Virus record (IMG/VR): IMGVR_UViG_3300025327_000577
Location: 1-42,581 of that record
Length of the DNA: 42,581 nucleotides
Source of the DNA: a virus
Reading direction: 5' to 3' (one strand)
Position numbers and translations under genes: made by a program. The notes below the pieces were generated by a model. The model did not search any database, was not told the DNA's origin, and saw only the letters and a program-made list of their open reading frames with translations. Below, one piece after another: positions 4,036-42,581 of the stretch. Numbering within the stretch: position 1 is the stretch's first letter; every line of letters begins with the position of its first letter.

Positions 4036-4368
4036 ATGCCGCGAACCAATCTTTGGACCGAGCGTGAAGAACGATTGCTCAAGGCGCTGAGCTCAAAAGG
4101 GGTAAGCAAAACGCTCATTGCATCGCGGGTGCGGCGCAGTGTCGAAGCGATACGCATTAAGGCGAGCGCGCTCGGTTTGCGTCTGCCGGACATGAGAAAA
4201 GAAAAGATTGACCGTCCACCGGTCCTGGGCGCACGGCCAAAGGCCAGCCGGCGCAAGACCACGATGCGACCTTGCATGTGCTGCCGTTGTTCCTTCCCCT
4301 CGGAGGGCGCGCACCACCGGCTGTGTGGTAATTGCCGCCACAATTCGGTCAGCCCTCACGCGCTATGA
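4036..4368 (+). CDS. HTH/zinc-finger regulator, PR-operon copy
   Basis: 110 residues from ATG 4036 (AGGA upstream). The N-terminal SANT/GcrA-like helices are NLWTEREERLLKALSSKGVS and TLIASRVRRSVEAIRIKASA. The C-terminal zinc motif is CMCC (about residues 79-82) ... HHRLCGNCR. It is a paralog of the gene at 1-479, which shares the zinc motif nearly residue for residue. It ends ATGA into the transglycosylase gene, an arrangement repeated in the other copy. Probably a transcription regulator, perhaps acting with sigma-70 as GcrA does; that analogy is weak. Confidence 0.7.
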   Translation: MPRTNLWTEREERLLKALSSKGVSKTLIASRVRRSVEAIRIKASALGLRLPDMRKEKIDRPPVLGARPKASRRKTTMRPCMCCRCSFPSEGAHHRLCGNCRHNSVSPHAL

Positions 4369-4835
4369 GATTCCTCGCCGCCGCGGTCGCGCTCACCCTT
4401 GCCGCCCCGATCGCGGCAAGCAACAAATTCGATGCGCTGTTTCAAAAACATGGAGCAGCCTATGGCGTAGACTGGAAACTTCTGAAAGCGGTCGCACAAG
4501 TGGAATCTAACCTGGACCCGCGCGCAGAGAATCGCCGGGATCCGAGCATCGGCATCATGCAAGTCTTCTGCCGCCCCGCTGGCAACACGTGTGCCAATGC
4601 GCTCGACGCGCTCGCGTGGCCTCCACCACACCGCGACCGTCTGCTAGATCCAGACTACAACATACAGATCGGCGCACAGATATTAGCCGCGAACATCCGC
4701 AGCTTCGGCTTGCGCAAGGGAATCGCCACCTATAACCAATGGGGAGCACGCACCACGCACAAGGGCCGACCGTTTCCGAACCAGCGATATGTGGACAAGG
4801 TCATGCGCGCCTATCGGATGATGGCGAAACCATGA
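4365..4835 (+). CDS. Secreted lytic transglycosylase (SLT family)
   Basis: 156 residues with a signal peptide (MRFLAAAVALTLAAPIAAS). The SLT domain has the catalytic Glu47 in AQVESNLDPRAENR, then the GIMQV motif, YNIQIGAQILA and TYNQWGA. It would cleave periplasmic peptidoglycan. It lies among early regulatory and replication genes, not in the lysis cassette, and overlaps both neighbours by ATGA. A VirB1-like or entry-related role is possible. A paralog with the same neighbour is truncated at 42410-42568. Confidence 0.85.
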   Translation: MRFLAAAVALTLAAPIAASNKFDALFQKHGAAYGVDWKLLKAVAQVESNLDPRAENRRDPSIGIMQVFCRPAGNTCANALDALAWPPPHRDRLLDPDYNIQIGAQILAANIRSFGLRKGIATYNQWGARTTHKGRPFPNQRYVDKVMRAYRMMAKP

Positions 4836-7141: not shown

Positions 7142-7630
7142 ATGCATAACGCCGATGTCAGGCCCAAGCTCCCTCCCTACGGCCGCGCCTTATTAGCCGC
7201 ACGCGATGCCGCTGCTGCGCGCAGAGAATGCCTAGAGCCCGTATGCGTATTTTATGGGACCGATCCATGGCGACACGCAAAGGATTGTTTGTCGATCATA
7301 ATGCCGGCGCAGGAATATGAAACTGGTAAATATGACTGGACCTTAATTGCCGGATTAAAAATCGAGGTGATTTGGATTGGTGGTGACAGGGTGCAGGAGT
7401 TGGCCGCCGAGATCGCGGCCCATGCGGCACCGGTCACGATAATCACGAAAGGAAAAAAACGAGACGTGGCCGATTTTTTATTCACATATCGTCCTCGCCC
7501 ATGCTGGTGGTCGATCGAGGATGAGGCCGATTATGAACGCCGGGCGAGGCTCTACAACCGATTCCTGGCGGCCGATCTTGGCGCGCTGGATCTGACAGAA
7601 GATGACAGACGAGAAGCCGTCGGAGATTAA
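7142..7630 (+). CDS. Hypothetical replication-region protein, 162 aa
   Basis: 162 residues, AGAGG about 8 bp before ATG 7142. It contains KLPPYGRALLAARDAAAARR and a middle region predicted as alternating strands (WTLIAGLKIEVIWIGGDRVQ). It overlaps the helicase gene by 29 bp, so the two are probably coupled. No family recognised; the position next to the helicase suggests a replication accessory role. Confidence 0.6.
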   Translation: MHNADVRPKLPPYGRALLAARDAAAARRECLEPVCVFYGTDPWRHAKDCLSIIMPAQEYETGKYDWTLIAGLKIEVIWIGGDRVQELAAEIAAHAAPVTIITKGKKRDVADFLFTYRPRPCWWSIEDEADYERRARLYNRFLAADLGALDLTEDDRREAVGD

Positions 7631-9305
7631 GGTGGCCACGAGCAATGTCGCGATTCTGGCCGAGGCGGCGCTCAAAAAGGCCCGCAAGAAAAAGGCCAAA
7701 GGAGATATTCCTTCCGGCGGCGCTGCGAATGGAGACGATCGACCGGTAATCGAGATCGTGCGCGGCAAATTGCCGCGCGTGCTGGATGAGGCCGATCGCG
7801 CACTCGGGGAGCGCGATCCTACGATTTACGCACAGCATTCGCGACTGGTGCGGATTGTATCGTTCGACGCCGACGATGCCGCCCAAGAAAAACGCATTCA
7901 TCGGCGCCCGGGGGCGATTGTGATTCAGCAGGTCTCGCCGGCGCACTTGGTGGACCGGTTGGCGTATGTGGCTAGTTGGAAACGCTGGGACAAACGTGAA
8001 GGCGACTGGATATCGGCCGATGTCCCGCACATGATCGCCGAGAGTTTTATCGCACGCGCCGGCGCATGGAAACACGTGCCGCCGCTGACCGGCGTGGTCG
8101 AGGCTCCCACGCTGCGCATGGATGGATCGGTGCTTGATCGGCCGGGCTACGATGCCGCCAGTGGGATTTATTTCGCGGGCCGGCAGCTTGTCGGATACGT
8201 TGCGCCGCCGGAAAATCCGACCCGGGACGATGCCAGGAAAGCGCTCGATCTGTTATGGGACATGGTTTCAGATTTTCCCGCCGTCGGTTTTGAGGATCGC
8301 GCGTCGATGATCGCCGGCATTTTGACCGTTTTGTTGCGGCGCTCTTTACCGTCCGCGCCGATGCTCGCAATCACGGCGCCGATGCCGGGGACGGGGAAGA
8401 GCAAACTCGCCGATGTGATTGCATTGATTGCTACTGGACGGCAGGCACCTGTGCTGAGCATAGGCGAGGACCAGGCCGAGGGAGAGAAGCGCCTCGCGGC
8501 CGCGTTGCTGTCCGGCGATGCGATCGTCAATCTGGATAATATCGAACGGCCACTATTCGGCGATTTGCTGTGCCAGGTGCTGTCGCAGCCGGCGGTGCAT
8601 TTGCGACCGTTGGGTGGATCGGTGCAGGTGACTATTGTATCGAACAGCGCATTTCTCGCGACGGGCAATAATCTCGACATCCGCGGCGATCTCAAACGGC
8701 GCATCGTTCTGGTACGCATGGATGCAAAAATGGAGCGCCCTGAGCAGCGTAAGTTCGCGCACGACATAGTCGATATCGTCCGCGAGCGGCGAGGGGAATT
8801 GATAACTGCATGCTTAATCATCGTGCGCGCGTATATCACGGCCGGTTATCCGTCAATAGAAGCCGTGCCGTTCGGCGGATTCGAAAGCTGGGATGCGTGG
8901 TGCCGGCGGCCGCTAATCTGGCTGGATATCCCGGACCCATTGCTGGCAAGTGAAGAAGTGCGCGCAGAAGACCCCGATATAGCCCTACAGCGCGCCCTGT
9001 TCACGGCGTGGGACAAGGAAATCGGGCAAGCGGAGGTAACTGCATCAGTTATCACGGCACGCGCCGTAGAAGCGACGAGAGGAGTGGAGGGGCAATCGGT
9101 GCACATGAACCCTGATCTGCATGAAGCTATTCTGGCTGCGTGCGGAGAGAAGATCACAACCAAGCGGTTCGGGTATTGGTTAAGGCGGCATCAAATGCGG
9201 GTGTGCGATGGGTACAGGTTGGAGCGTGCTGGGTTAGATGATCATTCGAAGATCGCACGATGGCGGTTGGTTAGGATTTCCGGCAATGCGGGTAATGGCG
9301 GGTAA
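7602..9305 (+). CDS. Phage replicative helicase (P4/D5-like ATPase)
   Basis: 567 residues. ATPase core: Walker A MPGTGKS (263-268), Walker B AIVNLDNIE (about 308-315), sensor region ATGNNLDIRGDLKRR with an Arg finger candidate. The N-terminal 200 residues lack a visible primase motif. This layout is common for proteins of proteobacterial phages that act as origin helicases in place of DnaB recruitment. The C-terminus ends ISGNAGNGG, encoded by the left arm of a 17-bp inverted repeat (9280-9296). Confidence 0.75.
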   Translation: MTDEKPSEIKVATSNVAILAEAALKKARKKKAKGDIPSGGAANGDDRPVIEIVRGKLPRVLDEADRALGERDPTIYAQHSRLVRIVSFDADDAAQEKRIHRRPGAIVIQQVSPAHLVDRLAYVASWKRWDKREGDWISADVPHMIAESFIARAGAWKHVPPLTGVVEAPTLRMDGSVLDRPGYDAASGIYFAGRQLVGYVAPPENPTRDDARKALDLLWDMVSDFPAVGFEDRASMIAGILTVLLRRSLPSAPMLAITAPMPGTGKSKLADVIALIATGRQAPVLSIGEDQAEGEKRLAAALLSGDAIVNLDNIERPLFGDLLCQVLSQPAVHLRPLGGSVQVTIVSNSAFLATGNNLDIRGDLKRRIVLVRMDAKMERPEQRKFAHDIVDIVRERRGELITACLIIVRAYITAGYPSIEAVPFGGFESWDAWCRRPLIWLDIPDPLLASEEVRAEDPDIALQRALFTAWDKEIGQAEVTASVITARAVEATRGVEGQSVHMNPDLHEAILAACGEKITTKRFGYWLRRHQMRVCDGYRLERAGLDDHSKIARWRLVRISGNAGNGG

Positions 9306-9391
9306 TGGTTACATCTAACGCGTAAGAATGGCAAGGATGACATATATATATAAGGGGCTGAAACATCCCCCGCGATTACCCGCATTGCCGG
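9280..9391. repeat. 17-bp perfect inverted repeat around the end of the helicase gene
   Basis: CCGGCAATGCGGGTAAT (9280-9296) and its exact reverse complement (9375-9391) are separated by 78 bp containing GGCGGGTAATGG and an AT-alternating tract (ATATATATA near 9342-9352). Candidate replication origin structure or a large mRNA hairpin ending the early operon. Confidence 0.65.
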
Positions 9392-9586
9392 TGATTCCGG
9401 CCGGGCTCTCGCGCCTGAATGGTGCGATCTTATTCTGTGCAATCGCGTCGCGGGTCCTTCCCGCGATCATAAACGCGAGTAATTCAAACCTCGTTTTTTT
9501 TGTAGTGGAGGGGTGCTATGGGCCTTCCTTACTGAGTAAGATCAACGAGATAGACCAGAAAAGAACGAAATCTGGAACATGAAAAT
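9306..9586. other. Intergenic region before terminase, no convincing gene
   Basis: Besides the right arm of the inverted repeat, it holds a 7-bp hairpin TCGCGGG/CCCGCGA (about 9448-9466) and a run TTTTTTTT after CCTCG (about 9492-9500), perhaps a weak terminator. An open frame at 9328-9582 has no Shine-Dalgarno or recognisable domain and is not called. Confidence 0.5.
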
Positions 9587-10087
9587 ATGATCGTAAACAA
9601 AAATCAGCTGGCGGGCGTGGTGGGGAAATCTGAGCGGACGTTGACGGAGTGGCAGGACGATGGTTTGCCGATTGAGTCTGTGGGCGGGCGCGGGATGGAG
9701 AATCAATACGACACCGCTAAAGTGATCGAATGGATTGTGCAGCGGTCGCTGTCCGGTAAAACGGTGATGCCGCCGAAGGAGCTAAAAGATTTTTACGAGG
9801 CGCGGTTGCGTGAAATGGACGTGGCGGAACGAGCTGGGTTACTGGTATCAGTCGAGGAAGTAGCGCCGTTGTGGGAGGGGGCAGTATTGGCGGCGCGGAC
9901 GGATTTACTTGGTATGGGTCCCAGGCTAAAAGCCGCGATGGATGCGCGCTACGGGATTAACGTGGATATGGAAATGATTGAGGCAGAGATTCATCACGCG
10001 CTGACTAAGTTGAGCGAAAAACCGCCGTCGCCGAACACCGACGACGACGAACCAGAGGGAACGGACGTGGAGGAAAATCCGGAATGA
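9587..10087 (+). CDS. Terminase small subunit (Nu1 family)
   Basis: 166 residues. The N-terminal winged-helix DNA-binding part is VNKNQLAGVVGKSERTLTEW with GLPIESVGGRG, the family signature. Then come a helical segment (LKDFYEARLREMDVAERAGL) and an acidic tail. Binds the packaging site and recruits the large subunit, whose gene overlaps by 4 bp. A cos site is expected nearby but was not identified. Confidence 0.85.
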   Translation: MIVNKNQLAGVVGKSERTLTEWQDDGLPIESVGGRGMENQYDTAKVIEWIVQRSLSGKTVMPPKELKDFYEARLREMDVAERAGLLVSVEEVAPLWEGAVLAARTDLLGMGPRLKAAMDARYGINVDMEMIEAEIHHALTKLSEKPPSPNTDDDEPEGTDVEENPE

Positions 10088-12231
10088 TGCCAGCCTCGGC
10101 ACGGGTGATAAATCGCGCGGATTGGGTGCCGCAGGTCCCGCCCTGGCTATCAACACGCACCGTGGCGATCGCCATGCTTGGCCGCGCCTGGCGCCATTGG
10201 ACACCTCCGCGCAAACAAAATACGCGGGAATGGGCGGACGAGAATCTGTATCTGTCGCCGGACGCAGGCTCGGCGCGCCCGGGAAAATATCGCTCGGACG
10301 TGACGCCATGGTTGTGGGCGATTCAAGAGGCCATTGACGACCCAGCCGTGCAAGAGATCGTGTGCATGAAATCCAGCCAGATCGGTTGGACCATGGGCGT
10401 GGTGATGGCGTACATCGGAAAGCGGATCGACCTCGACCCCTGCCCGATCGTGGTCATGTTCCCCACCGCCGATGCCGCCCGTGAGTTCAACCAAGAAAAG
10501 TTCATGACCACGGTAAGCGTGACACCACGCATGCGCACCAGGGTTGATCTGCGGTCACGCAAGGACGGCAATCGCGCCACCTTCAAACGATTCGCTGGCG
10601 GGTTCCTAAAGTTCGTAGGCTCCAATTCGCCGCGTTCGGTGAAATCATCATCTGCGCCAGTATTGATTGTGGAAGAACCGGACGACGCCAGCCAAGACGT
10701 GAAAGGCCAGGGTGATTCAATTCGACTGCTCAAAGACCGAGCCAAAACATATCCGCGTTTCAAGGTGGTCATCGGCGGCACGCCGACGATCAACGATTTG
10801 TCGAATACCCAGGAGGCCTATCGAAATAGCGACCAACGCAAACTGTTTGTGCCTTGCCATCACTGCGGCGAAGATCACGTGCTCGATTGGGAGAATGTGC
10901 GCTGGACCGAAGACCCAAACCAGCGTCATGAAATCTATGGCCACGCGCAGCCCGAGACGGCGCGCTATGCGTGCCCGCATTGCGGCACGCTGTGGAACGA
11001 TTACGAAAAAAATCAGAACGTCCTGCGCGCCTGCACCGAAGGACGCTGGCGCGCGACGGCTGCCTTTAACGGCGCGGCCGGTTTCGGCTATCTCGGAGAA
11101 ATGTATGTATCGTGGCCGAATTCCGGCATAGTTTATTTGGTACGGCGCTTCTTGGTGGCAAAGCGCAAGGCCGACAACGGTGATGATCGCGAGATGGTGG
11201 CGTTTTATAACTCCACGCTCGGTTTGCCCTACGAATATGGCGGCAAGGCGCTGGACGTTGAGGGGATTCGCAAGCAATGCACGCTGGATCAATTCTACGC
11301 TGAGGGCACAGTGCCGCGAGGTGGGTTAGCGGTGACGATCGGCGTGGATGTACAGCACGATCGGTTCGCAATCATCGTTCGCGCATGGGGCCGCGGCGAG
11401 GAATCGTGGCTGGTGAAGTTCCACGAAATCTATGGCTCCGTGAATGACAGCAGCGATCTCGTCTGGCAGGAGCTCGAGCAAAGCGTGTTCAGATCGTTCC
11501 AGCACGATTGCGGACGCGACCTATATGCGGTGGCGGTATCGGTGGATAGCTCCGACGGCAACACATCGGATGCGGTTTATACCTGGGTGCGCGCAATGAA
11601 GCGCAAGTATCGGCGTGTGCATCTGATGGCCATCAAGGGCGATAGCTATCGCAACACCGATAAAGAAATTTTCACGCTGCCAAAGCAATCGGTGGATCAC
11701 AAGACTACGACCAAAGCGTGGAAGTACGGTCTGCGGCCGTTCATCGTCGGCACGAATAAGGCCAAAGATCTGCTGCTCGGTGGCGAGCAGCAGCGTGGGC
11801 GCATCCATCTGGCCGGTATCGGATCGGGGCGATTCCACGTGTATCCCTCAGTGCGCGAGGATTATTTCGATCAACTCACGGCCGAGGTCAAGGCACCGTC
11901 GCGCAAAATGCGCGGTAAATTGGTATGGCAGAAGCGCGCCGGGCGCAACAACGAGGCGCTGGATGGCGAGGTCTATGCGTTGCACGCCGCGCGAGCGATC
12001 AAGACGCACGTGCTTACGCCGGCGCAATGGGACTCAATCGAACAGCGCATCGTGCAGTCAGACCTGTTTCATCCGTCGGCAGATCTGCCAGCGGCGGAAG
12101 ATTTGGCTGTTTCGTCTCCGGATGCTGAGAAAAAACCGAAAGCCGAAGTCACCACGCCAACATCGCCAGCATCGACTGCTGGTAAATCGTCGCCGCGGCG
12201 GCAGATCAGCAAGGGGTTTGTGAACAGATGA
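10084..12231 (+). CDS. Terminase large subunit (GpA family)
   Basis: 715 residues. ATPase motif KSSQIGWT (about residue 96) in the GpA style, Walker B-like VLIVEEPDD, zinc ribbon CHHCG ... CPHCG in the middle, and nuclease-domain aspartates in IGVDVQHDRF and VSVDSSDG. Packages DNA into the prohead and cuts it. Overlaps both neighbours by 4 bp. The C-terminal about 50 residues are Ser/Pro/Lys-rich and low complexity. Confidence 0.9.
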   Translation: MMPASARVINRADWVPQVPPWLSTRTVAIAMLGRAWRHWTPPRKQNTREWADENLYLSPDAGSARPGKYRSDVTPWLWAIQEAIDDPAVQEIVCMKSSQIGWTMGVVMAYIGKRIDLDPCPIVVMFPTADAAREFNQEKFMTTVSVTPRMRTRVDLRSRKDGNRATFKRFAGGFLKFVGSNSPRSVKSSSAPVLIVEEPDDASQDVKGQGDSIRLLKDRAKTYPRFKVVIGGTPTINDLSNTQEAYRNSDQRKLFVPCHHCGEDHVLDWENVRWTEDPNQRHEIYGHAQPETARYACPHCGTLWNDYEKNQNVLRACTEGRWRATAAFNGAAGFGYLGEMYVSWPNSGIVYLVRRFLVAKRKADNGDDREMVAFYNSTLGLPYEYGGKALDVEGIRKQCTLDQFYAEGTVPRGGLAVTIGVDVQHDRFAIIVRAWGRGEESWLVKFHEIYGSVNDSSDLVWQELEQSVFRSFQHDCGRDLYAVAVSVDSSDGNTSDAVYTWVRAMKRKYRRVHLMAIKGDSYRNTDKEIFTLPKQSVDHKTTTKAWKYGLRPFIVGTNKAKDLLLGGEQQRGRIHLAGIGSGRFHVYPSVREDYFDQLTAEVKAPSRKMRGKLVWQKRAGRNNEALDGEVYALHAARAIKTHVLTPAQWDSIEQRIVQSDLFHPSADLPAAEDLAVSSPDAEKKPKAEVTTPTSPASTAGKSSPRRQISKGFVNR

Positions 12232-13321: not shown

Positions 13322-13396
13322 AGCGGGATAGATCAGAGGTAGATCGCTGCGCTCATACCGCAGAGGCCGCTGGTTCGACCCCAGCTCCCGCTTCCA
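13322..13396 (+). tRNA. tRNA with anticodon CAT (Met, or Ile2 if modified)
   Basis: 75 nt, complete cloverleaf: acceptor AGCGGGA/TCCCGCT, D stem GATC/GATC, anticodon stem CTGCG/CGCAG with loop CTCATAC (anticodon CAT), variable AGGCC, T stem GCTGG/CCAGC with TTCGACC. CCA is encoded (13394-13396). All stems pair perfectly. The discriminator base is T, which is unusual. It lies between two intrinsic terminators in the late leader. Confidence 0.9.
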
Positions 13397-23755: not shown

Positions 23756-23788
23756 ATGCAGGGCGGCTTCGGCCGCCCTGCATTTTTT
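23756..23788 (+). terminator. Strong intrinsic terminator after major capsid gene
   Basis: Perfect 12-bp stem ATGCAGGGCGGC/GCCGCCCTGCAT with a TTCG tetraloop and TTTTTT. Probably limits read-through from the highly expressed capsid gene into the tail genes. Confidence 0.9.
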
Positions 23789-34936: not shown

Positions 34937-35107
34937 ATGGAACCGATTAAAGAGGCGGGCGCATGTTACGACCAAATGGCGGTTGTCGAGAAATACGAGA
35001 GGGTGATCTCGTATCTCTATCCCCTCGCCCAAAGTTTGCCGAGGAAGCATGGGGTGGCACGGGATATGTTTCTCGCCGCCCTGCTCGCGGCGCTTCAAGG
35101 AGAGTAA
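34937..35107 (+). pseudogene. avd: Truncated Avd (DGR accessory variability determinant)
   Basis: 56 codons. MEPIKEAGACYDQMAVVEKY and ERVISYLYPLAQSLPRKHGV match the start of BPP-1 Avd (about 128 residues) almost residue for residue, as recalled. After about residue 46 (RDMFLAALL) it runs into an unrelated AALQGE end and a stop. In BPP-1 the template repeat and reverse transcriptase gene follow; here the next gene begins 7 bp later. It lacks most of the helical bundle, so it is unlikely to function. Confidence 0.8.
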
Positions 35108-35113
35108 ATCCTC

Positions 35114-35431
35114 ATGGGTAACCCCATGCCGGAACTAAGCCAAGCCGACATAAATCGCATTGTCAGCGCTCTTGTACCGCAGATCGTCGCCTCAATCCGC
35201 GAGACGCCGCCGGATTTCAAACTTACCCAAGAGGAACATTTTAAAGCACATCTCGTTATAGACAAACTTGCGAAATGCTTAGACGATGAAACGCTTCAGT
35301 CGCTACGTGATCTGCTCGGAGCGTACCGCAAGGGTCGCAGCATGTTCTTCGTTTCATTCGTCGGGCTGATGATCGCGGGCGCCATGGGCCTCGTCGCACT
35401 TGCGCTCGGAATGAAAATACCGTGGCGCTGA
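35114..35431 (+). CDS. Single-pass membrane protein near lysis genes
   Basis: 105 residues: soluble helices (ELSQADINRIVSALVPQIVA), then one transmembrane helix (FVSFVGLMIAGAMGLVALAL) close to the C-terminus. AGGAG about 11 bp upstream of ATG 35114. Holin-accessory or virion-membrane protein by position. Confidence 0.6.
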   Translation: MGNPMPELSQADINRIVSALVPQIVASIRETPPDFKLTQEEHFKAHLVIDKLAKCLDDETLQSLRDLLGAYRKGRSMFFVSFVGLMIAGAMGLVALALGMKIPWR

Positions 35432-35841
35432 TTCTGCTCCTGCGTCGCGACATCTTCACCGACCGCTCGGTGACGGGCCAGCTATCTGCGGGTGGCGCGT
35501 TCGAGTGCTACACGCTGGAGGACACCGACCGGCGGCTGGAGGCGGGCGGAGCGAAGATCAAGGACCGCACTGCGATCCCGCGCGGCACGTATCCAGTAGT
35601 GCTCGACTTCTCACCGCGTTTCCAGGTCGTTATGCCACACGTACTCGACGTGCCTGGGTTCTCCGGCGTGCGTATTCACTCCGGCAACCGCCCTGAGGAT
35701 ACCGAGGGCTGCATACTGGTCGGACGGACACGTGCGGCGGATTTGGTCGGCGAATCGCGCGCGGCCTACAACGCGCTGTACGCGAAGTTGCTCGCGGCCC
35801 AAGGCCGCCAAGAAGCCATCACGCTGGAGGTGCTCCAATGA
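35422..35841 (+). CDS. DUF5675 family protein, putative lysis-associated
   Basis: 139 residues from GTG 35422. LLRRDIFTDRSVTGQLSAGG, GTYPVVLDFSPRFQVVMPHV, FSGVRIHSGNRPEDTEGCIL: the IHxGN...GCI pattern of DUF5675, a domain resembling L,D-transpeptidase-like folds and frequent in phage lysis regions. It may be the endolysin or a cell-wall modifier; catalysis unproven. Confidence 0.75.
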   Translation: MALILLLRRDIFTDRSVTGQLSAGGAFECYTLEDTDRRLEAGGAKIKDRTAIPRGTYPVVLDFSPRFQVVMPHVLDVPGFSGVRIHSGNRPEDTEGCILVGRTRAADLVGESRAAYNALYAKLLAAQGRQEAITLEVLQ

Positions 35842-36224
35842 TCGACCCGATTTTGCAATGGTTCATGAACCTGTTCTCCCTGGCCGAATGGCGCGCAATG
35901 GCCTGGCTGCTCCTAGCCACGCTCACCGCAACCCACACGCTCAAGATCATCTGGCGGCGTTCTCCTGTGCCTGGCGGGGGCGGACGACAGGTCGCGTTGA
36001 TCGCGGCCATCCTGTCCGTGGCATTCTCCTATTTCCTCTGGCCCCCTGATGGCATCCCCTGGTGGATCGCCGGCATCGTCGGCGGTCCCACGTCGAACCT
36101 CGCATTTATGGCCGGATTCGCACTAATCAAGAAATACGCCCCGGACATCGCGGCCACCATGAACTGGGACCGACGCAAAACCTACGGCCTCCCGCCGAGC
36201 GGAATTCCCGAGCGCCGCCAATGA
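35838..36224 (+). CDS. Holin-like membrane protein
   Basis: 128 residues with three hydrophobic segments (AMAWLLLATLTATHT, VALIAAILSVAFSYFLW, WIAGIVGGPTSNLAFMAGFA) and a charged C-terminus, typical of a class I-like phage holin. Overlaps DUF5675 and the spanin gene by 4 bp. Confidence 0.65.
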   Translation: MIDPILQWFMNLFSLAEWRAMAWLLLATLTATHTLKIIWRRSPVPGGGGRQVALIAAILSVAFSYFLWPPDGIPWWIAGIVGGPTSNLAFMAGFALIKKYAPDIAATMNWDRRKTYGLPPSGIPERRQ

Positions 36225-36592
36225 TTCGGATCTACGCCATCCTCATCAGCCTGACCGTCGCCGCGGCGCTGCTCTGGTGGTACGGTGGCGCCCGCTACAA
36301 TGCCGGCTACGCCGCCGCCTCCGCCGAACAAGCCGCCGCCGTATCCGCCATGCAGCAACGTATGGTCGACGCCCGCACCGAATCCGCTCAGCGCCTGACG
36401 GCGGCCGAAGACCATCTACGACAAAGAGAGGTGAAATACGATGCCGAACTCGCCCGACTCAAAACCAAAGACGATTCATTCCGTGCCTGGCTGGAGATTC
36501 CTGTCCATCCTGCTGCTCTCGACCTTATCCGCGGCCTGCGCAACGAGACCGCTGCCAATCCCCTGCCAACCCGACCGCATCCTGATCCGTGA
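36221..36592 (+). CDS. Inner-membrane spanin (Rz-like)
   Basis: 123 residues: N-terminal anchor (IRIYAILISLTVAAALLWWY) and a periplasmic coiled coil (VDARTESAQRLTAAEDHLRQ). Starts ATGA over the holin stop. Spans the periplasm with the Rz1-like lipoprotein whose gene starts inside it. Confidence 0.8.
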   Translation: MIRIYAILISLTVAAALLWWYGGARYNAGYAAASAEQAAAVSAMQQRMVDARTESAQRLTAAEDHLRQREVKYDAELARLKTKDDSFRAWLEIPVHPAALDLIRGLRNETAANPLPTRPHPDP

Positions 36593-36734
36593 GATCCACT
36601 TGCCCGAGCTTCCGCCAACAGCCACTAACCTCGATCTCCTCGATCTCCTCCGCGCCATCACCCACGATCTCACCATCGATAATACCCGCAAACGCGAAAT
36701 CCATGCCCAATTAGATTCCTGCCTCGCGCGCTAA
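36441..36734 (+). CDS. Outer-membrane spanin lipoprotein (Rz1-like), nested in Rz
   Basis: 97 residues in a different frame, starting inside the Rz-like gene and running 142 bp past it. Signal with lipobox LLLSTLSAAC, then a Pro-rich stretch. Longer than classical Rz1, with a helical C-terminus. Nested spanin pairs are characteristic of lambda-like lysis cassettes. Confidence 0.8.
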   Translation: MPNSPDSKPKTIHSVPGWRFLSILLLSTLSAACATRPLPIPCQPDRILIREIHLPELPPTATNLDLLDLLRAITHDLTIDNTRKREIHAQLDSCLAR

Positions 36735-36819
36735 CCCCCCCATCAGACGAGTGGCCCGAAATAGCGCGTATTTACGTGGTTTCCCCGCATACCGTTCGTC
36801 GGCTGCCATAAAATGGGGG

Positions 36820-36847
36820 TTGACAGGAGCGGTATCATATATATAAT
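36820..36847 (+). promoter_or_regulatory. Consensus sigma-70 promoter for accessory block
   Basis: TTGACA (36820-36825), 16-bp spacer, TATAAT (36842-36847): both hexamers perfect. Inverted repeats AACCCCC..AT/ATGGGGGTT (36733-36743 and 36813-36821) flank the upstream side. Drives genes from 36928; expected to be strong and independent of late antitermination, as for a moron. Confidence 0.85.
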
Positions 36848-36927
36848 GATGCTCATGGATAGGCGATTTGCCGATCCACCTGATCCCGGCCAGGAGCGCC
36901 TCGGAGCTAAGATAGGAGCAACAGATC

Positions 36928-37515
36928 ATGATTATCGCGCACACCCCGAGCGGAAAAGAAATCAATCTGCAGATCATCGGTGGCAAACTACTGGCAGAGA
37001 TAGCAGCCGCTGGCATCACTGGCTCGATCAGCGGAGCCTATAAGCTCACCCGCCCCAAAATCGGCTGCACGCATTATGCAGAGTGCGCCGGCAAGCAGAT
37101 CGGCCTGGATGCGGCCAATTATCAGATCATCCGCGGCATGCTGGATGAGATCAATGCGGCCGCTCGCAAGGCCGAGCAGGATCGCCTCTCCCTCCACGTG
37201 CCCGGCATGGATGTGCTGTGCGCCGCGCACAACGCCGAGGAGTATTATCAGCGCGGATTTGAGCGCATGATGGAGGATGGGGATAATGATGGTGTCCGCC
37301 CGCCGCGCCGGCCAGCAACCGATGCCGCCGAGATCGCACGCCAATACCCGCGCGCGGCCGTCTATCTCAGGGCCGAGGCCTACGAGTGCGCCAGCCACGA
37401 TGCCAAGGCCAGCGCAGGCCGCAAGGCCAAGGAGCTGCTGGCCTCCGGCGGCAGCATCGAGGAGGCCAAAAAAATCCTCGCGAACTGGCTACCGATCAGC
37501 GCGCAGTGGGATTGA
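36928..37515 (+). CDS. Hypothetical moron-like protein, 195 aa
   Basis: First gene after the consensus promoter, AGGAG 9 bp before ATG 36928. 195 residues, helical, with one cluster C-T-H-Y-A-E-C (residues about 47-53) and a C-terminal helix (KELLASGGSIEEAKKILANW). No family recognised. Likely expressed in the lysogen; could affect host behaviour. Confidence 0.6.
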   Translation: MIIAHTPSGKEINLQIIGGKLLAEIAAAGITGSISGAYKLTRPKIGCTHYAECAGKQIGLDAANYQIIRGMLDEINAAARKAEQDRLSLHVPGMDVLCAAHNAEEYYQRGFERMMEDGDNDGVRPPRRPATDAAEIARQYPRAAVYLRAEAYECASHDAKASAGRKAKELLASGGSIEEAKKILANWLPISAQWD

Positions 37516-37518
37516 TAG

Positions 37519-37621
37519 TCCTGTCTCCCTGCGCTCTCGCCCGAGAGCGCAGCGGGGCGGAAACTCCGCCAGCCCTTACATGCGGGCAAGCGCATGCACA
37601 GGATTCCGGCCCTGAGAGCCG
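37519..37621 (+). promoter_or_regulatory. Structured 5' leader: four-way junction candidate
   Basis: Closing stem TCCTGT (37519-37524)/ACAGGA (37598-37603) encloses hairpins CTGCGCTCTC/GAGAGCGCAG (37529-37552), GGCGG/CCGCC (37556-37570) and CATGCG/CGCATG (37579-37596). A further CGGC/GCCG hairpin (37607-37621) lies just before the AAGGA Shine-Dalgarno of the gene at 37636. Cis-regulatory leader or riboswitch-like element; ligand unknown. Confidence 0.6.
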
Positions 37622-37635
37622 AAAGGATCAATAAA

Positions 37636-37920
37636 ATGAAAATCACAGAAAAATTATTGCTCGACAACTACTCCTACACTTGCAATGGCGGCTCGAAAGT
37701 ATCCGCTGTCGCGGGCCAGCATATCTGGTGGGAGTACCGCACCGGCCAAGATAGCGATGGTTACAACCCTGTGTGCTCGCGAGAGTCAGCCAGCGGAATC
37801 ACGCTTGAGTATGGTCGGGATGCAACGATCGGTCTGGGCGATCATGCCGATCATCCGGCATTATCTCAGATCGCCTCCGATGAGGCGGCGATGTGGGGAT
37901 CGGAGGTGGCCAATGCGTAG
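37636..37920 (+). CDS. Hypothetical protein, 94 aa, under a structured leader
   Basis: 94 residues, ITEKLLLDNYSYTCNGGSKV and GQHIWWEYRTGQDSDGYNPV. Hydrophilic, acidic; no family. AAGGA 7 bp before ATG 37636. Its 8-bp overlap with the next gene and GGAGGTGG inside its end suggest coupling. Confidence 0.6.
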   Translation: MKITEKLLLDNYSYTCNGGSKVSAVAGQHIWWEYRTGQDSDGYNPVCSRESASGITLEYGRDATIGLGDHADHPALSQIASDEAAMWGSEVANA

Positions 37921-38155
37921 CACCATCATCATCTCCAAGCGTGGCGAAGGCTACATCAGCACGGTATCCGGCAAGTTCGGCGGCGGGCATCAAGGCGCTC
38001 GCGCCGGCCTCACGCCTTACGATGCCGCCGCCACCGCTGCCCGCTACATGATCGAGTACGCGCGGAGCAATCCGGAGGGTGGCGATTTGATGGCCCCGCC
38101 TGAAGTGCTCGATCTGGTGCCCGAGCACCTGCGTAGCATCGATGGCCAAGCCTAA
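37913..38155 (+). CDS. Hypothetical protein, 80 aa
   Basis: 80 residues from ATG 37913 with GGAGGTGG upstream. RSTIIISKRGEGYISTVSGK then DAAATAARYMIEYARSN: a small strand-helix protein resembling double-stranded RNA-binding or HicB-like folds only loosely. Function unknown. Confidence 0.55.
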   Translation: MRSTIIISKRGEGYISTVSGKFGGGHQGARAGLTPYDAAATAARYMIEYARSNPEGGDLMAPPEVLDLVPEHLRSIDGQA

Positions 38156-38306
38156 AAAATTCATCCGCACCAACCACCTCGGCGCTGACGGCGCCGAGGT
38201 GGCCTTACTTCCGCCGTTCGTATATTGCGAACGCTGCGAGCACGTGGTCACGCCGCGCATGGATCGCGGCGATACTCTGTGCCCGCGCTGTGGGCTGGTG
38301 CTGTGA
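38142..38306 (+). CDS. Small zinc-ribbon protein, 54 aa
   Basis: MAKPKKFIRTNHLGADG then CERC ... CPRCG: a compact zinc ribbon. The ATG at 38142 overlaps the previous gene by 14 bp, and the stop overlaps the next ATG. A probable small regulator; role unknown. Confidence 0.6.
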   Translation: MAKPKKFIRTNHLGADGAEVALLPPFVYCERCEHVVTPRMDRGDTLCPRCGLVL

Positions 38307-38365
38307 TGGGCAATGAATTCACCCGCCGCGCCGCACTCACCAAGATGCGCGGTCGTTCGCTATAA
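38306..38365 (+). pseudogene. Remnant N-terminus of KorA-like gene
   Basis: 19 codons, MGNEFTRRAALTKMRGRSL, then a stop. They match the start of the full gene at 38689 (NRAEFSRRAALTKMHGRAL) at protein and DNA level. Looks like a partial duplication; the gene at 38382-38702 lies between the two copies. Confidence 0.6.
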
Positions 38366-38381
38366 TTCCCGGAGAAAAATC

Positions 38382-38702
38382 ATGAGGAAAAAACATGCCG
38401 ACGGCAGCCTGGAAATTTCCGGCGCCGATCTCGCCGATCTGAAAATCATCGCGGACGAAGATACGGTGCTCAACCTCGCCGGCGCGGCGGCGCGGCGAGC
38501 GTTGGCGGGGAGGAATCGTCGTGCCGGCGCGAGTGTACGTACCGCCGAAAAACTCGCATCCGGTGCGCGCCCGACCGCAGAAATGATCCGTGTTGTTCGG
38601 TCGATGCTGGGGCGAGGAAATTGCTATGAGGTTGTCATCCGCGCGGCGATGCGAGCCGCTAATTTTACCCTGCTGGGTTTGCCCCCACGTGAACCGCGCT
38701 GA
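38382..38702 (+). CDS. Hypothetical protein, 106 aa
   Basis: 106 residues, MRKKHADGSLEISGADLADL, with an Arg/Ala-rich centre. GGAG lies 8 bp before ATG 38382, and a TATAAT-like box sits at 38361. It lies between the truncated and complete KorA-like copies. No family recognised; coding status is moderate. Confidence 0.45.
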   Translation: MRKKHADGSLEISGADLADLKIIADEDTVLNLAGAAARRALAGRNRRAGASVRTAEKLASGARPTAEMIRVVRSMLGRGNCYEVVIRAAMRAANFTLLGLPPREPR

Positions 38703-38946
38703 GTTCAGCCGGCGCGCCGCGCTTACCAAAATGCACGGCCGCGCGCTCGATGCCGCGCGGCTGGTGCTGGTGGAGGGGTTGTCGCGCTACGCGGCGGCCG
38801 AGCGCCTGGGCATCGATATCGCGGCCGTGTCGCGGGCGGCGAAAAAAATCACGGAGTTGAAAACCTGCCGCTGCTGCGGCCAGGTGACTGGCTCCCATTC
38901 CGCGGCGAGTATTCGATCGAGGATTGGGGGGTATTCGACCAGGTGA
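38689..38946 (+). CDS. KorA/TrfB-like HTH regulator
   Basis: 85 residues from GTG 38689, a start supported by the truncated copy upstream. HTH: RLVLVEGLSRYAAAERLGID then IAAVSRAAKKI, as in TrfB/KorA plasmid repressors. Then CRCCG, a possible zinc pair. Probably controls expression of the accessory block or integration module. Confidence 0.65.
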   Translation: MNRAEFSRRAALTKMHGRALDAARLVLVEGLSRYAAAERLGIDIAAVSRAAKKITELKTCRCCGQVTGSHSAASIRSRIGGYSTR

Positions 38947-39001
38947 GATTATTCGCATGGATGCGCCAGCGGAGGAGGCCAGAATGATTTTGGGCGAAAT
39001 G

Positions 39002-39195
39002 TGTCAAATATCCACGTCCAACATATCCCAAGTTATTGATTTTAAAGTCACCAATAAATCATAGAATTTTGGACAAAATGCGTCTAATCTATTGTTTTTG
39101 CTGGAAAACAACACTGATTCGTAATCAGTAGGTCCGCGGTTCGAGTCCGCGCACCGGCACCATTTGTCCAATATTCTGTCTGCGCTGTCCAATAT
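39002..39195. other. attP: tRNA-Thr(CGT) 3' half with integrase arm-type repeats
   Basis: The core at 39111-39162 is the 3' half of tRNA-Thr: anticodon stem ACTGA/TCAGT with loop TTCGTAA, T arm CGCGG-TTCGAGT-CCGCG, acceptor end and CCA. There is no D arm, so it is the phage copy that restores the host gene on integration. Arm-like TGTCCAATAT occurs at 39165 and 39186 (21 bp apart), inverted at 39066-39075 (ATTTTGGACA), with variants at 39002 and 39015. Confidence 0.85.
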
Positions 39196-39212
39196 AATTG
39201 CCTAAAAAATAA

Positions 39213-40178
39213 TCAGCGGGCGGGCTTCACGCGGCGTGGGCCGCGGCGGTAGATGCGGCTGGTGGTGCGGGGGTCGTCGTGGCCGAGGAGCTCCGAGGGG
39301 TTTTCGGCGCGATGTGCCGCGAAGGCGCGGAGATCGTGGAAATGGAATCGTTCGGCGAGTTTGCCGCTCGATATCGCCTTAGCCATGATGCGTTGCCACA
39401 GCGATTCGAATCCGCTCACGGTGTAGGATTGGCCTTCCTGATTGGCGATCAGGTAGATCGAGCGCACGGAACCGCGCAATGATCGGGCGCGCGCAATGGC
39501 ATCGCGTAAATTATCTGTCCATTCAATAAGCAAGCGCTTGCCGGTTTTCCCGGTTTCGATGTAGACACCTTCGTCGCGGATATGCTCGCGCTCATTGAGC
39601 CGCAAGATGTCGCCGAGTCGCAGGCCGGTGAGACGGGCGATATCCATGGCGCAGCGAATTACCGGTGTAGCGGTCTCATAGACGGCTGCGAATTCATGAT
39701 CCTCGATGTGGCGCCGGCGCGGGCGTTCAGGATTGCGGGTGACCTGGCGGCAAGGGTTGTCGGTCGCGAGCCCCCATCTGATGGCGTAACGAAAGATGCG
39801 CGAAAGTAATGCGACCTCCCGGTTCGCTGCGATTCGCGGTCTCATGTCCATGTAAGCATAAATATCCTGGGAGGTAATTTCGCCCGGTTCCATGTGGCCG
39901 AAAACACGTTTGAGCGGAATGATTTCGCGCGCGTTGTTCTGCTGGGTTCGCGGTGCTTTGGTCGGCGTGACTTCGCGCATGTGGCGCTCGATGATCGCGG
40001 CCATGCCGCCGGCGATTGGCGAGGCGTTGATATCGGCATATTTTTTGAGTGCAATTGCACGATCGCGCGCGAGCCAGATCCATTCGCCATTTCGGGCGAC
40101 GAAATAATAGGCGTTGTGGCGAAAATAAACCCGCTCTGGTAAGTCCCGGCGGTGCTGGCGGCGGCGGCCCATCGGCAT
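39213..40178 (-). CDS. int: Tyrosine integrase
   Basis: 321 residues. The catalytic set is visible: Arg187 (TGLRLGDIL), Lys about 211-214 (TGKTGKR), His281-x-x-Arg284 (FHFHDLRAF), His300 (LLGHDDPRTT) and Tyr310. The N-terminal core-binding domain includes AREIIPLKRVFGHMEPGEIT. It is the last gene of the leftward transcript, 51 bp from the tRNA-Thr attP core. No IntI-specific insertion is seen, so it is not an integron integrase. Confidence 0.95.
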   Translation of the reverse strand: MPMGRRRQHRRDLPERVYFRHNAYYFVARNGEWIWLARDRAIALKKYADINASPIAGGMAAIIERHMREVTPTKAPRTQQNNAREIIPLKRVFGHMEPGEITSQDIYAYMDMRPRIAANREVALLSRIFRYAIRWGLATDNPCRQVTRNPERPRRRHIEDHEFAAVYETATPVIRCAMDIARLTGLRLGDILRLNEREHIRDEGVYIETGKTGKRLLIEWTDNLRDAIARARSLRGSVRSIYLIANQEGQSYTVSGFESLWQRIMAKAISSGKLAERFHFHDLRAFAAHRAENPSELLGHDDPRTTSRIYRRGPRRVKPAR

Positions 40179-40180
40179 AG

Positions 40181-40381
40181 TTAACCAGCCTTTTTGAGCG
40201 CGGCAAAGTCGGGAATATTAAACCGTTGTTTTTGCGCAGTATCGAGATCGGTGCGGAGCACCCTCGGATGGCCGTCAGCGGCAATAAAAAAGCGCAAGCC
40301 ATATTTACGCAGCCAGGCGATCTGCTTGCCTGGGCGGCGATAGCCGGTGAAGGCCCTTAGCTCGGTATCGCTAATCAGCAT
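40181..40381 (-). CDS. DUF4224 protein (excisionase-like)
   Basis: 66 residues from ATG 40381: MLISDTELRAFTGYRRPGKQ and WLRKYGLRFFIAADGHPRV match DUF4224, small proteins usually paired with integrases and presumed directionality factors. It overlaps the upstream zinc-finger gene by 11 bp and ends 2 bp before the integrase start. Confidence 0.8.
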   Translation of the reverse strand: MLISDTELRAFTGYRRPGKQIAWLRKYGLRFFIAADGHPRVLRTDLDTAQKQRFNIPDFAALKKAG

Positions 40382-40643
40382 AGTCCCGTAAATTCGCGTC
40401 TGAACGCGGGATAGCGCCAGTTTCGAGGCGGACAACGGAGCCGATTACGAGCCCGCCCGGTTGGTTTGGGTAGTGGACCGTGAACGCCCATCCGCCGCGC
40501 TTGAGGGCTCGGATCGAGGATATTTTGCCGGGGCAGGTTTGCTCGCGGTGCCAGGCGGCGCGGCAGGCGTCGGAATGGAAGCGATGCCCGCATCGCGTCG
40601 GGGTAAATTTGATTCCGCAGGGCGGATAGGCGCAGGGGGTCAT
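40371..40643 (-). CDS. Zinc-finger protein, 90 aa
   Basis: 90 residues: CAYPPCGIKFTPTRCGHRFH with SDACRAAWHR is a C...C...H...C zinc finger seen in many phage and plasmid proteins. The C-terminal half is beta-rich (WAFTVHYPNQPGGLVIGSVV). Overlaps both neighbours. Probably nucleic-acid binding; role unknown. Confidence 0.65.
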   Translation of the reverse strand: MTPCAYPPCGIKFTPTRCGHRFHSDACRAAWHREQTCPGKISSIRALKRGGWAFTVHYPNQPGGLVIGSVVRLETGAIPRSDANLRDYAD

Positions 40644-40951
40644 GCGACGCTACCCATCCTCACAAAACTCTTTCCCGCCAATTCAATCGTATCCGTCCAT
40701 CCCTTTCGGCCTATCAGGCAAATTTCACCATCCACTATTACCCGGAAACTATCTCTACGTTCCCGCGAAACGTACAGATCAAAAACATGCTCAACGCCCA
40801 GGATCAGATCGCGCACGATAATTTGCTTGGCATGCTTGCCGGAATGATCTGGCGGTCGTGGCTCCACTGGCCGTTCCATGCGCACACGTTCCTTGCCGGC
40901 CTGCATGGCGGCTTGATTGAATTTTCGGCTTCCTCTGCGTTTTCTGTACAT
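40640..40951 (-). CDS. Hypothetical protein, 103 aa
   Basis: Start taken at ATG 40951 (MYRKRRGSRKFNQAAMQAGK); a GTG at 40978 is possible. Basic N-terminus, then strands (FRVIVDGEICLIGRKGWTDT). ATGA overlap with the next gene. Its upstream side ends at the boundary of the attC cluster. Function unknown. Confidence 0.55.
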   Translation of the reverse strand: MYRKRRGSRKFNQAAMQAGKERVRMERPVEPRPPDHSGKHAKQIIVRDLILGVEHVFDLYVSRERRDSFRVIVDGEICLIGRKGWTDTIELAGKSFVRMGSVA

Positions 40952-41047
40952 GGCGATCTTCGGAAGTACGGATAACACTAGTTATGGCGCTCGCCAATCC
41001 CCGAAAACGCCAGAAATATAGGCATTTCACGAGCCGACGAACGGTAG

Positions 41048-41075
41048 TTGCATATACACGCAATGCGTGTATAGT
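41048..41075 (+). promoter_or_regulatory. Promoter with 21-bp perfect palindromic operator
   Basis: -35 TTGCAT (41048-41053), 16-bp spacer, -10 TATAGT (41070-41075). A palindrome centred on A41063, arms 41053-41062 and 41064-41073, fills the spacer. A second dyad GTAGTC-ACC-GACTAC lies at 41084-41098. Suggests autoregulation by the XRE protein at 41375. Confidence 0.7.
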
Positions 41076-41130
41076 CTGAGTCGTAGTCACCGACTACACC
41101 GCGCCTCGGGAACAGGGGCTGGAGAATAAA

Positions 41131-41382
41131 ATGAGCGACTTCACACCAAAATCTGCTGTAGAGGCGATGGGCTGCAAATATCCACAAGTTACGCTCGCTC
41201 GCGCTATTGGAGCGACCGGAACACATACTGAGGAGGCGCTCGCTGCATGGTTCAGCGAGGGTTTTTCCGCCTACCACGAAATGGATCGGACTCGTGGTGG
41301 AAATTCTGATGACGCGGACGTGGTGCGCGCCCGCGCCGCTGGTTACGAAACCGCTATGGAGTCGGAAATTATCGATGACTAA
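41131..41382 (+). CDS. Acidic partner protein of an XRE-type pair, 83 aa
   Basis: GGAG 7 bp before ATG 41131. 83 residues, acidic, MSDFTPKSAVEAMGCKYPQV. Overlaps the XRE gene by 8 bp and shares its promoter, an arrangement typical of toxin-antitoxin or regulator pairs. No toxin motif recognised. Confidence 0.6.
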   Translation: MSDFTPKSAVEAMGCKYPQVTLARAIGATGTHTEEALAAWFSEGFSAYHEMDRTRGGNSDDADVVRARAAGYETAMESEIIDD

Positions 41383-41596
41383 CCATCCAAACAGGGGCCG
41401 CGGAACACCGGCGGCGTCGCCAACACCAGAGAGAGTCCGAGCCGCCCGCGAGGCGGCCGGACTCTCGCAGTCGTCCGCCGCCGAGCTTATCCACTCCGGC
41501 TTGCGTGCGTGGCAGGAGTGGGAGGCCGGCAATCGGCGGATGCATCCTGCATTTTGGGAACTGTTCAAATTAAAATCCTCGTCAAGAGCGCCATAA
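41375..41596 (+). CDS. XRE/HTH regulator ending in an attC site
   Basis: 73 residues from ATG 41375. HTH: RVRAAREAAGLSQSSAAELI, then LRAWQEWEAGNRRMHPAFWE, a common DNA-binding fold. Its TAA stop (41594-41596) is part of the left core of attC1 (CCATAAC), the usual layout of an integron cassette gene. Confidence 0.75.
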   Translation: MTNHPNRGRGTPAASPTPERVRAAREAAGLSQSSAAELIHSGLRAWQEWEAGNRRMHPAFWELFKLKSSSRAP

Positions 41597-41651
41597 CAAG
41601 GCGCTGGAGAGGGACGCGCCTTACGGCGCGCCCCTCAGCTTTTCGTTATGC
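41591..41651 (+). repeat. attC1-like site
   Basis: Left core CCATAAC (41591-41597), right core GTTATGC (41645-41651). Inner arms GCTGGAGAGGGACGCGCC and GGCGCGCCCCTCAGC pair with extra bases on the left, apex TTAC. Resembles Vibrio VCR-type attC. Confidence 0.75.
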
Positions 41652-41825
41652 CGTAGGGTTTCCGACATCAGAATCAAGTTCAATCCTGAATTGGTCGCTC
41701 AGTCCAGACGCTTCGCGTTTAACGCTAGTTACTTTTGGTGCAGACACCATCTGCGCATTCAGCCAGTATTGAATGGCCTCGATCATGGTGTCTTCGTTCA
41801 GAATCAAATCGTTTGAACCTTTCAT
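41646..41825 (-). CDS. Cassette gene, 59 aa, hypothetical
   Basis: MKGSNDLILNEDTMIEAIQY from ATG 41825 (GAGGA 5 bp upstream), 59 residues, ends GNPTA. Its stop is the TTA of the attC1 right core. Unknown function; short acidic protein with a helix (EAIQYWLNAQMVSAP). Confidence 0.55.
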   Translation of the reverse strand: MKGSNDLILNEDTMIEAIQYWLNAQMVSAPKVTSVKREASGLSDQFRIELDSDVGNPTA

Positions 41826-41843
41826 GGTGTCCTCAGCCTCTCG

Positions 41844-41928
41844 GCATAACAAGCAGTTCAAGCCGACGCCGTTAAGCGTGGCACCCTTTCAATCACCGTG
41901 GCGGCGCGACTTAACCGCGGCGTTAGCA
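41844..41928 (+). repeat. attC2-like site
   Basis: Left core GCATAAC (41844-41850), right core GTTAGCA (41922-41928). Left inner arm GTTCAAGCCGACGCC is nearly the classical attC L'' sequence; right arm GGCGGCGCGACTTAAC. An extra unpaired C lies in the left arm. Confidence 0.8.
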
Positions 41929-42113
41929 CGATCCAAGTTGCATGATGGGCACCTTGTTCGCCCGTCTTTGTATAATCTCCATCCGCACTTTCTGGCCTCT
42001 CTCCGGCAGTAGCTTCGGTTAGGCCCAGTAAACTGTTCGCGTGGCGGTTTCTCGTGTTGGTGCCTTGCGAGAAAATCACACTGAACGTTGAGCACGTAGC
42101 ATTCTGCAAGCAT
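41889..42113 (-). CDS. Cassette gene, zinc-ribbon-like, 74 aa
   Basis: AGAGG 8 bp before ATG 42113. CYVLNVQC...CRREARKCGWRLYKDGRTRC...C: Cys pattern and GWRLYKDGR-RCPSC ending typical of small phage/cassette zinc-ribbon proteins. Its last 11 residues and stop lie inside attC2, so excision at attC2 would change its C-terminus. Confidence 0.6.
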   Translation of the reverse strand: MLAECYVLNVQCDFLARHQHEKPPREQFTGPNRSYCRREARKCGWRLYKDGRTRCPSCNLDRANAAVKSRRHGD

Positions 42114-42115
42114 CG

Positions 42116-42198
42116 TTCCAACCTCTTAATCGAGCCGACCGGGATAGTCGGCGCCATTCTAATCTTTCGTGGCCGGGCGGCTCATTAAGCCGTTAGGG
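42116..42198 (+). repeat. attC3-like site
   Basis: Left core TTCCAAC (42116-42122), right core GTTAGGG (42192-42198). Arms CTTAATCGAGCCG and CGGCTCATTAAG pair with one extra C on the left. Start codon of the minus-strand gene at 42113 lies 3 bp away. Confidence 0.75.
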
Positions 42199-42413
42199 GC
42201 GGCCTTCATTGCGTTGCCACAGCCGGAAGCAAATCTCCGTTGTCCTCGAAATCTTCCCGGAGAATTTCCAGCGTTTTTCGGTCTCGCCTTGTCTGCCTCA
42301 AGTCTTTTGGCTTCGAGCACATCACAGTCAACGTGATGGTGTTCACCAATCGTTGTGCCACAACCACGGCAATAACCAGTGCCGTCTGAATCTTCATGTG
42401 TGGCCGTGCTCAT
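42159..42413 (-). CDS. Cassette gene, zinc-binding-like, 84 aa
   Basis: ATG 42413 follows an excellent GAGGAGGT and overlaps the stop of the truncated transglycosylase (ATGA). 84 residues: GYCRGCGTTIGEHHHVDCDV suggests a zinc site, then a charged helix (LEAKRLEADKARPKNAG). Stop inside attC3. Confidence 0.6.
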   Translation of the reverse strand: MSTATHEDSDGTGYCRGCGTTIGEHHHVDCDVLEAKRLEADKARPKNAGNSPGRFRGQRRFASGCGNAMKAAPNGLMSRPATKD

Positions 42414-42568
42414 AAGTTACCTCCTCGCCCAACAAGGCGCGCCGGGATGCCGCGCTTTGCGGCGGCGATATCCGCATGGCGTTCGAGATCGGCGCGCGTC
42501 CAGGTTGTTTGTGCCGGGACCGGCGCAGAAACCGCCAGCGCGAGCACCAGGATGGTTGCGCGCATCAT
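42410..42568 (-). pseudogene. Truncated lytic transglycosylase paralog
   Basis: 52 residues: signal peptide (MRATILVLALAVSAPVPAQ), then LERHADIAAAKRGIPARLV, the start of an SLT domain matching FDALFQKHGAAYGVDWKLLK of the gene at 4365. After LV it runs into GRGGNL and a stop; the catalytic Glu region is lost. The break is at CTTG-TTGGGC, an integron-core-like heptamer. Across the window joint it follows the HTH/zinc gene, as at 4036-4835. Confidence 0.65.
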
Positions 42569-42581
42569 ATCGCGTAAGGGC

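Follow-up and report, generated by a model that had tools for sequence, protein, structure and literature searches.

A candidate structured leader RNA between two genes of a probable temperate phage

Phage transcripts can carry strong hairpins just after a stop codon, between two genes, which act in mRNA processing or stability, and in position these hairpins are like the element described here. Translational riboswitches with multi-helix junction aptamers are similar in another respect, since in both a closed helix bundle is followed by an alternative stem able to mask the Shine-Dalgarno sequence. The putRNAs of phage HK022, outlined in PMC9378689 as RNAs of ~70 nt with two stem-loops, like our locus place stem-loops side by side in the transcript of a phage operon. 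The candidate cis-regulatory RNA motifs found by comparative genomics, at least as presented in PMC2864571 and PMC8040213, for example, likewise consist of a structured non-coding stretch before a small gene without assigned function.

A gap with a predicted RNA fold between two phage genes

The element lies in a record of an uncultured bacterial virus (IMG/VR virus record IMGVR_UViG_3300025327_000577, 42,581 bases), the whole of which was analysed and is called the window below. The record carries terminase, portal, head protease and tail genes (PHROGs), a Mu-like head subunit (Pfam) and a tyrosine integrase gene at 39213-40178 on the minus strand (Pfam), and the phage is therefore likely temperate and tailed. 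The polymerase-to-terminase block (7602-12231) is akin to a prophage in Thioalkalivibrio sulfidiphilus ALJ17, with terminases 57-69% identical; this is the closest terminase prophage, and outside the block its region (L186-L188) has no similarity to the phage contig. A phage-borne tRNA-Met (cat) gene is present at 13322-13396 (ARAGORN/Rfam). The detrended cumulative GC skew has its minimum at 36750-38750, though the neighbouring genes remain on the plus strand.

The leader region is the 120-nt gap from P0002 (36928-37515) to P0001 (37636-37920), both on the plus strand, with the following features.

36820-36847, plus strand: presumed sigma70-type promoter of the P0002-P0001 transcript, TTGACA-16-TATAAT, 12/12 hexamer letters, a consensus match only
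36928-37515, plus strand: P0002, the upstream gene, 195 aa, codon score 0.458 against an in-frame mean of 0.400, ending in TGA with TAG directly after it
37517-37524, plus strand: 5' arm of the closing stem P1, AGTCCTGT, core-pair probability 0.84-0.99 by context, not above shuffled flanks
37529-37552, plus strand: H1, a perfect 10-bp hairpin with loop GCCC, pair probability 1.00
37556-37570, plus strand: H2, a 6-bp hairpin with loop AAC, pair probability 1.00
37579-37596, plus strand: H3, a 6-bp hairpin (CATGCG/CGCATG) with loop GGCAAG, probability 0.52
37598-37605, plus strand: 3' arm of P1, ACAGGATT, whose GAT is common to this arm and to the alternative stem masking the Shine-Dalgarno
37607-37621, plus strand: H4, a 4-bp hairpin (CGGC/GCCG) directly 5' of the Shine-Dalgarno, probability 0.99 in 37516-37636
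37623-37627, plus strand: Shine-Dalgarno AAGGA, read from the sequence, 8 nt before the ATG at 37636
37636-37920, plus strand: P0001, an orphan acidic protein gene, 94 aa, codon score 0.23, inside the in-frame range (0.40, sd 0.23)

The initial annotation had described three perfect hairpins within a closing stem and a further hairpin beside the Shine-Dalgarno, and all of these are present in the sequence: H1, H2, H3 and the P1 core TCCTGT/ACAGGA (37519-37524/37598-37603), and CGGC/GCCG directly before AAGGA. The P1 core can be extended to the pair A37517-T37605, and the second P0002 stop, TAG (37516-37518), overlaps its 5' arm. H1 can be lengthened by CC/GG (37527-37528/37554-37555) outside a bulged C. 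A rival pairing of H3, GCCC (37572-37575) with GGGC (37584-37587), has a probability of 0.48, and H4 is displaced in the MFE structure of longer sequence contexts. The alternative stem pairs GATTC (37602-37606) with GGATC (37625-37629), which alone is worth -7.2 kcal/mol.

P0002 belongs to a small family without assigned function (26-34% identity), with members in MT835717, of human faecal origin, and in two IMG/VR contigs; the family conserves a C-terminal QYPxA..YL..A together with WD-stop. Three distant relatives were found, all of which share the C-terminal WD-stop, and the end of the P0002 gene is thus fixed. The P0002 profile had no match among 369 Gammaproteobacteria. P0001 has a net charge of -7, and its structure prediction from the single sequence (mean pLDDT 35) is not usable. 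The promoter-like site is the sole 12/12 sigma70 consensus within 35000-42581.

Coding in another frame was considered for the gap and rejected, the three leader frames or parts covered by the codon-score test giving -0.33, -0.28 and -0.13 against 0.40 (sd 0.23) in frame and -0.66 (sd 0.29) off frame. Since these leader parts have no in-frame codon signal and the WD-stop of P0002 is conserved, the gap is truly intercistronic.

Fold strength and the search for relatives

By computation, the H1-H2 core is very stable, and the RNA fold goes beyond what composition explains. For 37516-37605 the MFE was -50.2 kcal/mol (z -5.3, 0/200 shuffles as good), and a separate shuffle set gave z -5.4 (0/500). 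The 103-nt span delimited in the initial annotation, 37519-37621, reached z -4.2 (1/200) and, on repetition, z -3.9 (3/500). Among 708 plus-strand 90-nt segments, roughly scored with 25 shuffles each, the leader had the most extreme z. When raw energy is the measure, stability as high is reached by 38 of the 3400 103-nt segments sampled on both strands, a consequence of the G+C richness of the phage. The plus strand is the more significant of the two (z -5.3 vs -3.6). H1 on its own has z -4.3, and when it is held fixed and the remainder shuffled, the remainder still scores z -3.2 (7/1000).

The outer parts of the structure are less secure. When only the flanks were shuffled around the fixed core, the bundle was closed at least as well by 119 of 1000 sequences, and P1 therefore does not reach significance by itself, despite a predicted core-pair probability of at least 0.84. 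The exact four-way junction (-55.6 kcal/mol) lies 0.5 kcal/mol above the MFE (-56.1 kcal/mol), and the hairpin adjacent to the Shine-Dalgarno is weak (37603-37640, 170/500 shuffles as good). The two-hairpin core is firm, and of the four-way junction first annotated, H1 and H2 are near-certain, whereas H3 (0.52 vs 0.48) and the closing stem leave the complete junction plausible but unproven. A second strong fold lies 0.6 kb downstream, at 38141-38210 (z -4.5), where the hairpin 38174-38202 falls inside a small zinc-ribbon-like frame (38142-38306, letters CERC/CPRC).

Known RNA classes do not account for the leader. Rfam 15 gave no leader match at the gathering score, in agreement with the initial remark that no match could be named, and a search of 37400-37750 up to E=10 returned four irrelevant minus-strand matches only. 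An intrinsic terminator was rejected, as H1-H4 carry no terminator-scan prediction and no T run, H1 being followed by CGGGGCGG; in the same phage, T runs do follow the hairpin at 23756-23783 and others folded around 13.2 and 21.7 kb. The leader was not called as a tRNA or tmRNA either, the only such ARAGORN/Rfam call being the tRNA-Met at 13322-13396. Hammerheads are included among the Rfam models, and hammerhead-like letters near H4 (CUGAGAG..CGAAAGG) had no Rfam match and did not fit the core. A repeated palindrome or mobile element was also dismissed: the H1 palindrome pattern occurred in two unrelated IMG/VR stretches, for H1 only, and the pattern of the H2-H3 linker matched one unrelated contig.

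No homologous leader was found among phages and plasmids at the DNA level. A distant blastn search of 50,697 phage records (E<=1) gave three short chance matches only, none of them HK022, and one BLAST match covering H1, in MT835574, was discarded because it lies inside a long open frame without such a fold. The best E was 1.3 against 87 loci, with no homologue. Seven records with related terminases had no match, none of them extending to the leader, and the nearest IMG/VR kin (L003 and L004, terminase 100% identical) are fragments with no match to the leader region.

The initial annotation had proposed an Infernal covariance search, and a covariance search was run with R1, a model built from the one sequence. 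It recovered the window copy at 157 bits and no credible second copy: there was no second whole copy within the window, no match in 92 loci, and only 18-bit matches outside the window in 19 terminase-related genomes, which are not credible. In the 369 Gammaproteobacteria its matches of 26.1 and 23.7 bits, both within open frames, are at chance level for that many genomes. These results are those of a single-sequence model with stricter filters above 40 genomes, with which diverged copies could be missed.

P0001 relatives were likewise absent from viral contigs, genome contigs, phages and plasmids, from 20/80 terminase-related genome loci and from the 369 Gammaproteobacteria. What the initial annotation described, a structured leader with an orphan gene behind it, therefore stands, with a fold unmatched in 200 shuffles and no P0001 relative in the collections searched.

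The spacers next to the P0002 relatives differ from the leader: that of L094 has z -0.1, and those of L092 and L093 are nearly gapless. Elsewhere in L094, at 4365-4510, a multi-hairpin spacer is predicted (z -2.0, 5/200) whose outer stem extends over the next gene's ribosome site; the R1 search showed no resemblance in sequence between this spacer and the leader described here. The related gut phage contigs L092 (4745-4890) and L093 (3750-3900) share a stretch of strong predicted folding (z -4.2 in L092) with no Rfam match; it separates the gene after the P0002-like one from a gene whose product is helix-turn-helix-like.

Proposed control of access to the P0001 ribosome site and rival readings

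We hypothesise, tentatively, that the leader is a cis-acting intercistronic RNA structure which may set access to the P0001 ribosome-binding site, whereby P0001 output could be uncoupled from P0002 translation or run against it; this is possible, and we give it somewhat less than an even chance. The element would act on a P0002-P0001 mRNA. When the P0002 stop is unoccupied, the P1 5' arm would pair with 37598-37605 and take up GATTC, and the AAGGA of P0001 would stay open while emerging from the polymerase. A ribosome finishing P0002 would instead cover the 5' arm, and GATTC, once freed, would pair with GGATC over the Shine-Dalgarno. The outcome would be production of P0001 that is independent of, or inverse to, that of P0002. 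A small-molecule ligand is unnecessary for this coupling, and none is indicated.

Folding predictions are compatible with such coupling at some transcript lengths. For 3' ends at 37640, 37650 and 37660, the predicted probability that the Shine-Dalgarno is open was 0.81, 0.60 and 0.67 in the free RNA and 0.12, 0.12 and 0.16 when 37516-37528 was masked to mimic a ribosome at termination. Shuffles of the 5' arm only reached the observed openness in 6, 3 and 6 of 300 cases, respectively, 1-2% figures that are uncorrected for the choice of these three ends, which were picked after the transcript-length results had been seen. At 37670-37680 the Shine-Dalgarno was closed either way (0.05/0.04 free vs 0.13/0.07 covered), the contrast returned at 37690 (0.45 free vs 0.09 covered), and from 37700 to 37760 there was no consistent difference (0.55 vs 0.56 at 37700; 0.06 vs 0.05 at 37740). 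Since the contrast is limited to some transcript lengths, the ribosome-coupled model is a hypothesis with modest support. Selection on any leader pair is likewise unproven, because the searched data hold no homologous leader.

Other readings share part of this evidence. H1 and H2 could protect the 3' end of the P0002 mRNA or mark a nuclease cut separating the P0002 and P0001 messages, which we regard as rather unlikely. The leader immediately follows a stop codon and precedes a ribosome site, H1 and H2 resemble in position the intergenic hairpins of other phage early operons, and these most secure helices (1.00 each) are those that such a role needs. H1 has only 10-12 bp, which is short for a typical double-strand nuclease site; the perfect 12-bp hairpin at 38174-38202, 0.6 kb downstream, could speak for a role of this kind in the same region but sits in a coding frame, and no homologue of the leader was found. 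The initial annotation had read the leader as riboswitch-like, that is, as a ligand-binding junction aptamer with P1 as the switching stem. The closed multi-helix domain does adjoin an alternative Shine-Dalgarno-masking stem that shares P1 nucleotides, but riboswitch classes are normally known from many conserved copies and no second copy was found anywhere searched, nor any Rfam match; H3 and P1 are the uncertain helices, the orphan P0001 gives no metabolic hint, no expression-platform-like terminator is present, and the sequestering alternative is predicted for some transcript lengths only. We consider this reading very unlikely, and with no relative found, a ligand-sensing switch is not a justified label for the leader. 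It is just as improbable that the locus is a once-seen RNA switch class, in which a junction domain beginning in the upstream stop codons would sense ribosome release (or a ligand) and open or mask the ribosome site of the next gene.

The folding could also be the by-product of palindromes acting at the DNA level, whether in protein binding or within a replication origin. All of H1, H2 and H3 are inverted repeats, the opposite strand has a good fold too (z -3.6), and the broad detrended GC-skew minimum over 36.75-38.75 kb includes them; the three palindromes nevertheless have no common sequence and no recurrence in the window, the skew minimum is a wide plateau, and the plus-strand fold is the more significant, which makes this reading quite unlikely. 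Nor does it seem likely that the gap is a neutral G+C-rich stretch with one strong hairpin arisen by chance and no function. Much of the signal does come from H1 (z -4.3 alone), the closing stem is not significant, 38 of 3400 segments are equal by raw energy and no conservation could be shown, but the remainder keeps z -3.2 (7/1000) when H1 is fixed and the z is the most extreme of 708. Finally, H1 and H2 follow each other directly in a phage operon, as would suit a put-like antitermination RNA with two adjacent stem-loops modifying RNA polymerase in cis, as in phage HK022. This is extremely unlikely: the three short chance matches among 50,697 phage records (E<=1) did not include HK022, the leader lies ~0.67 kb downstream of the promoter-like site, behind a whole gene, and H1 is an unbroken stem.

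Comparison with known systems

The locus is most likely of an ordinary kind, a structured intercistronic leader that influences how P0001 is used, with a sequence that is new and has no second example so far. Compared with phage intercistronic processing hairpins, its stem is shorter than usual nuclease sites, and it differs from translational riboswitches in having no conserved aptamer, ligand or Rfam match. From the HK022 putRNA, as far as PMC9378689 describes it, the leader differs in its place relative to the promoter and in having more helices, and no sequence similarity between the two was found. The comparative-genomics motifs, in the examples that PMC2864571 and PMC8040213 present, are known from many homologous copies with covariation, whereas the leader is one copy. 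Known from one copy without covariation, it counts as a well-defined candidate rather than as a riboswitch discovery. The connection of the P0002 stop codons with the P0001 ribosome site supplies a coupling model open to direct test, and if the leader does work as a regulator, it would add to the RNA controls that act in cis in temperate phages, without belonging to a described family.
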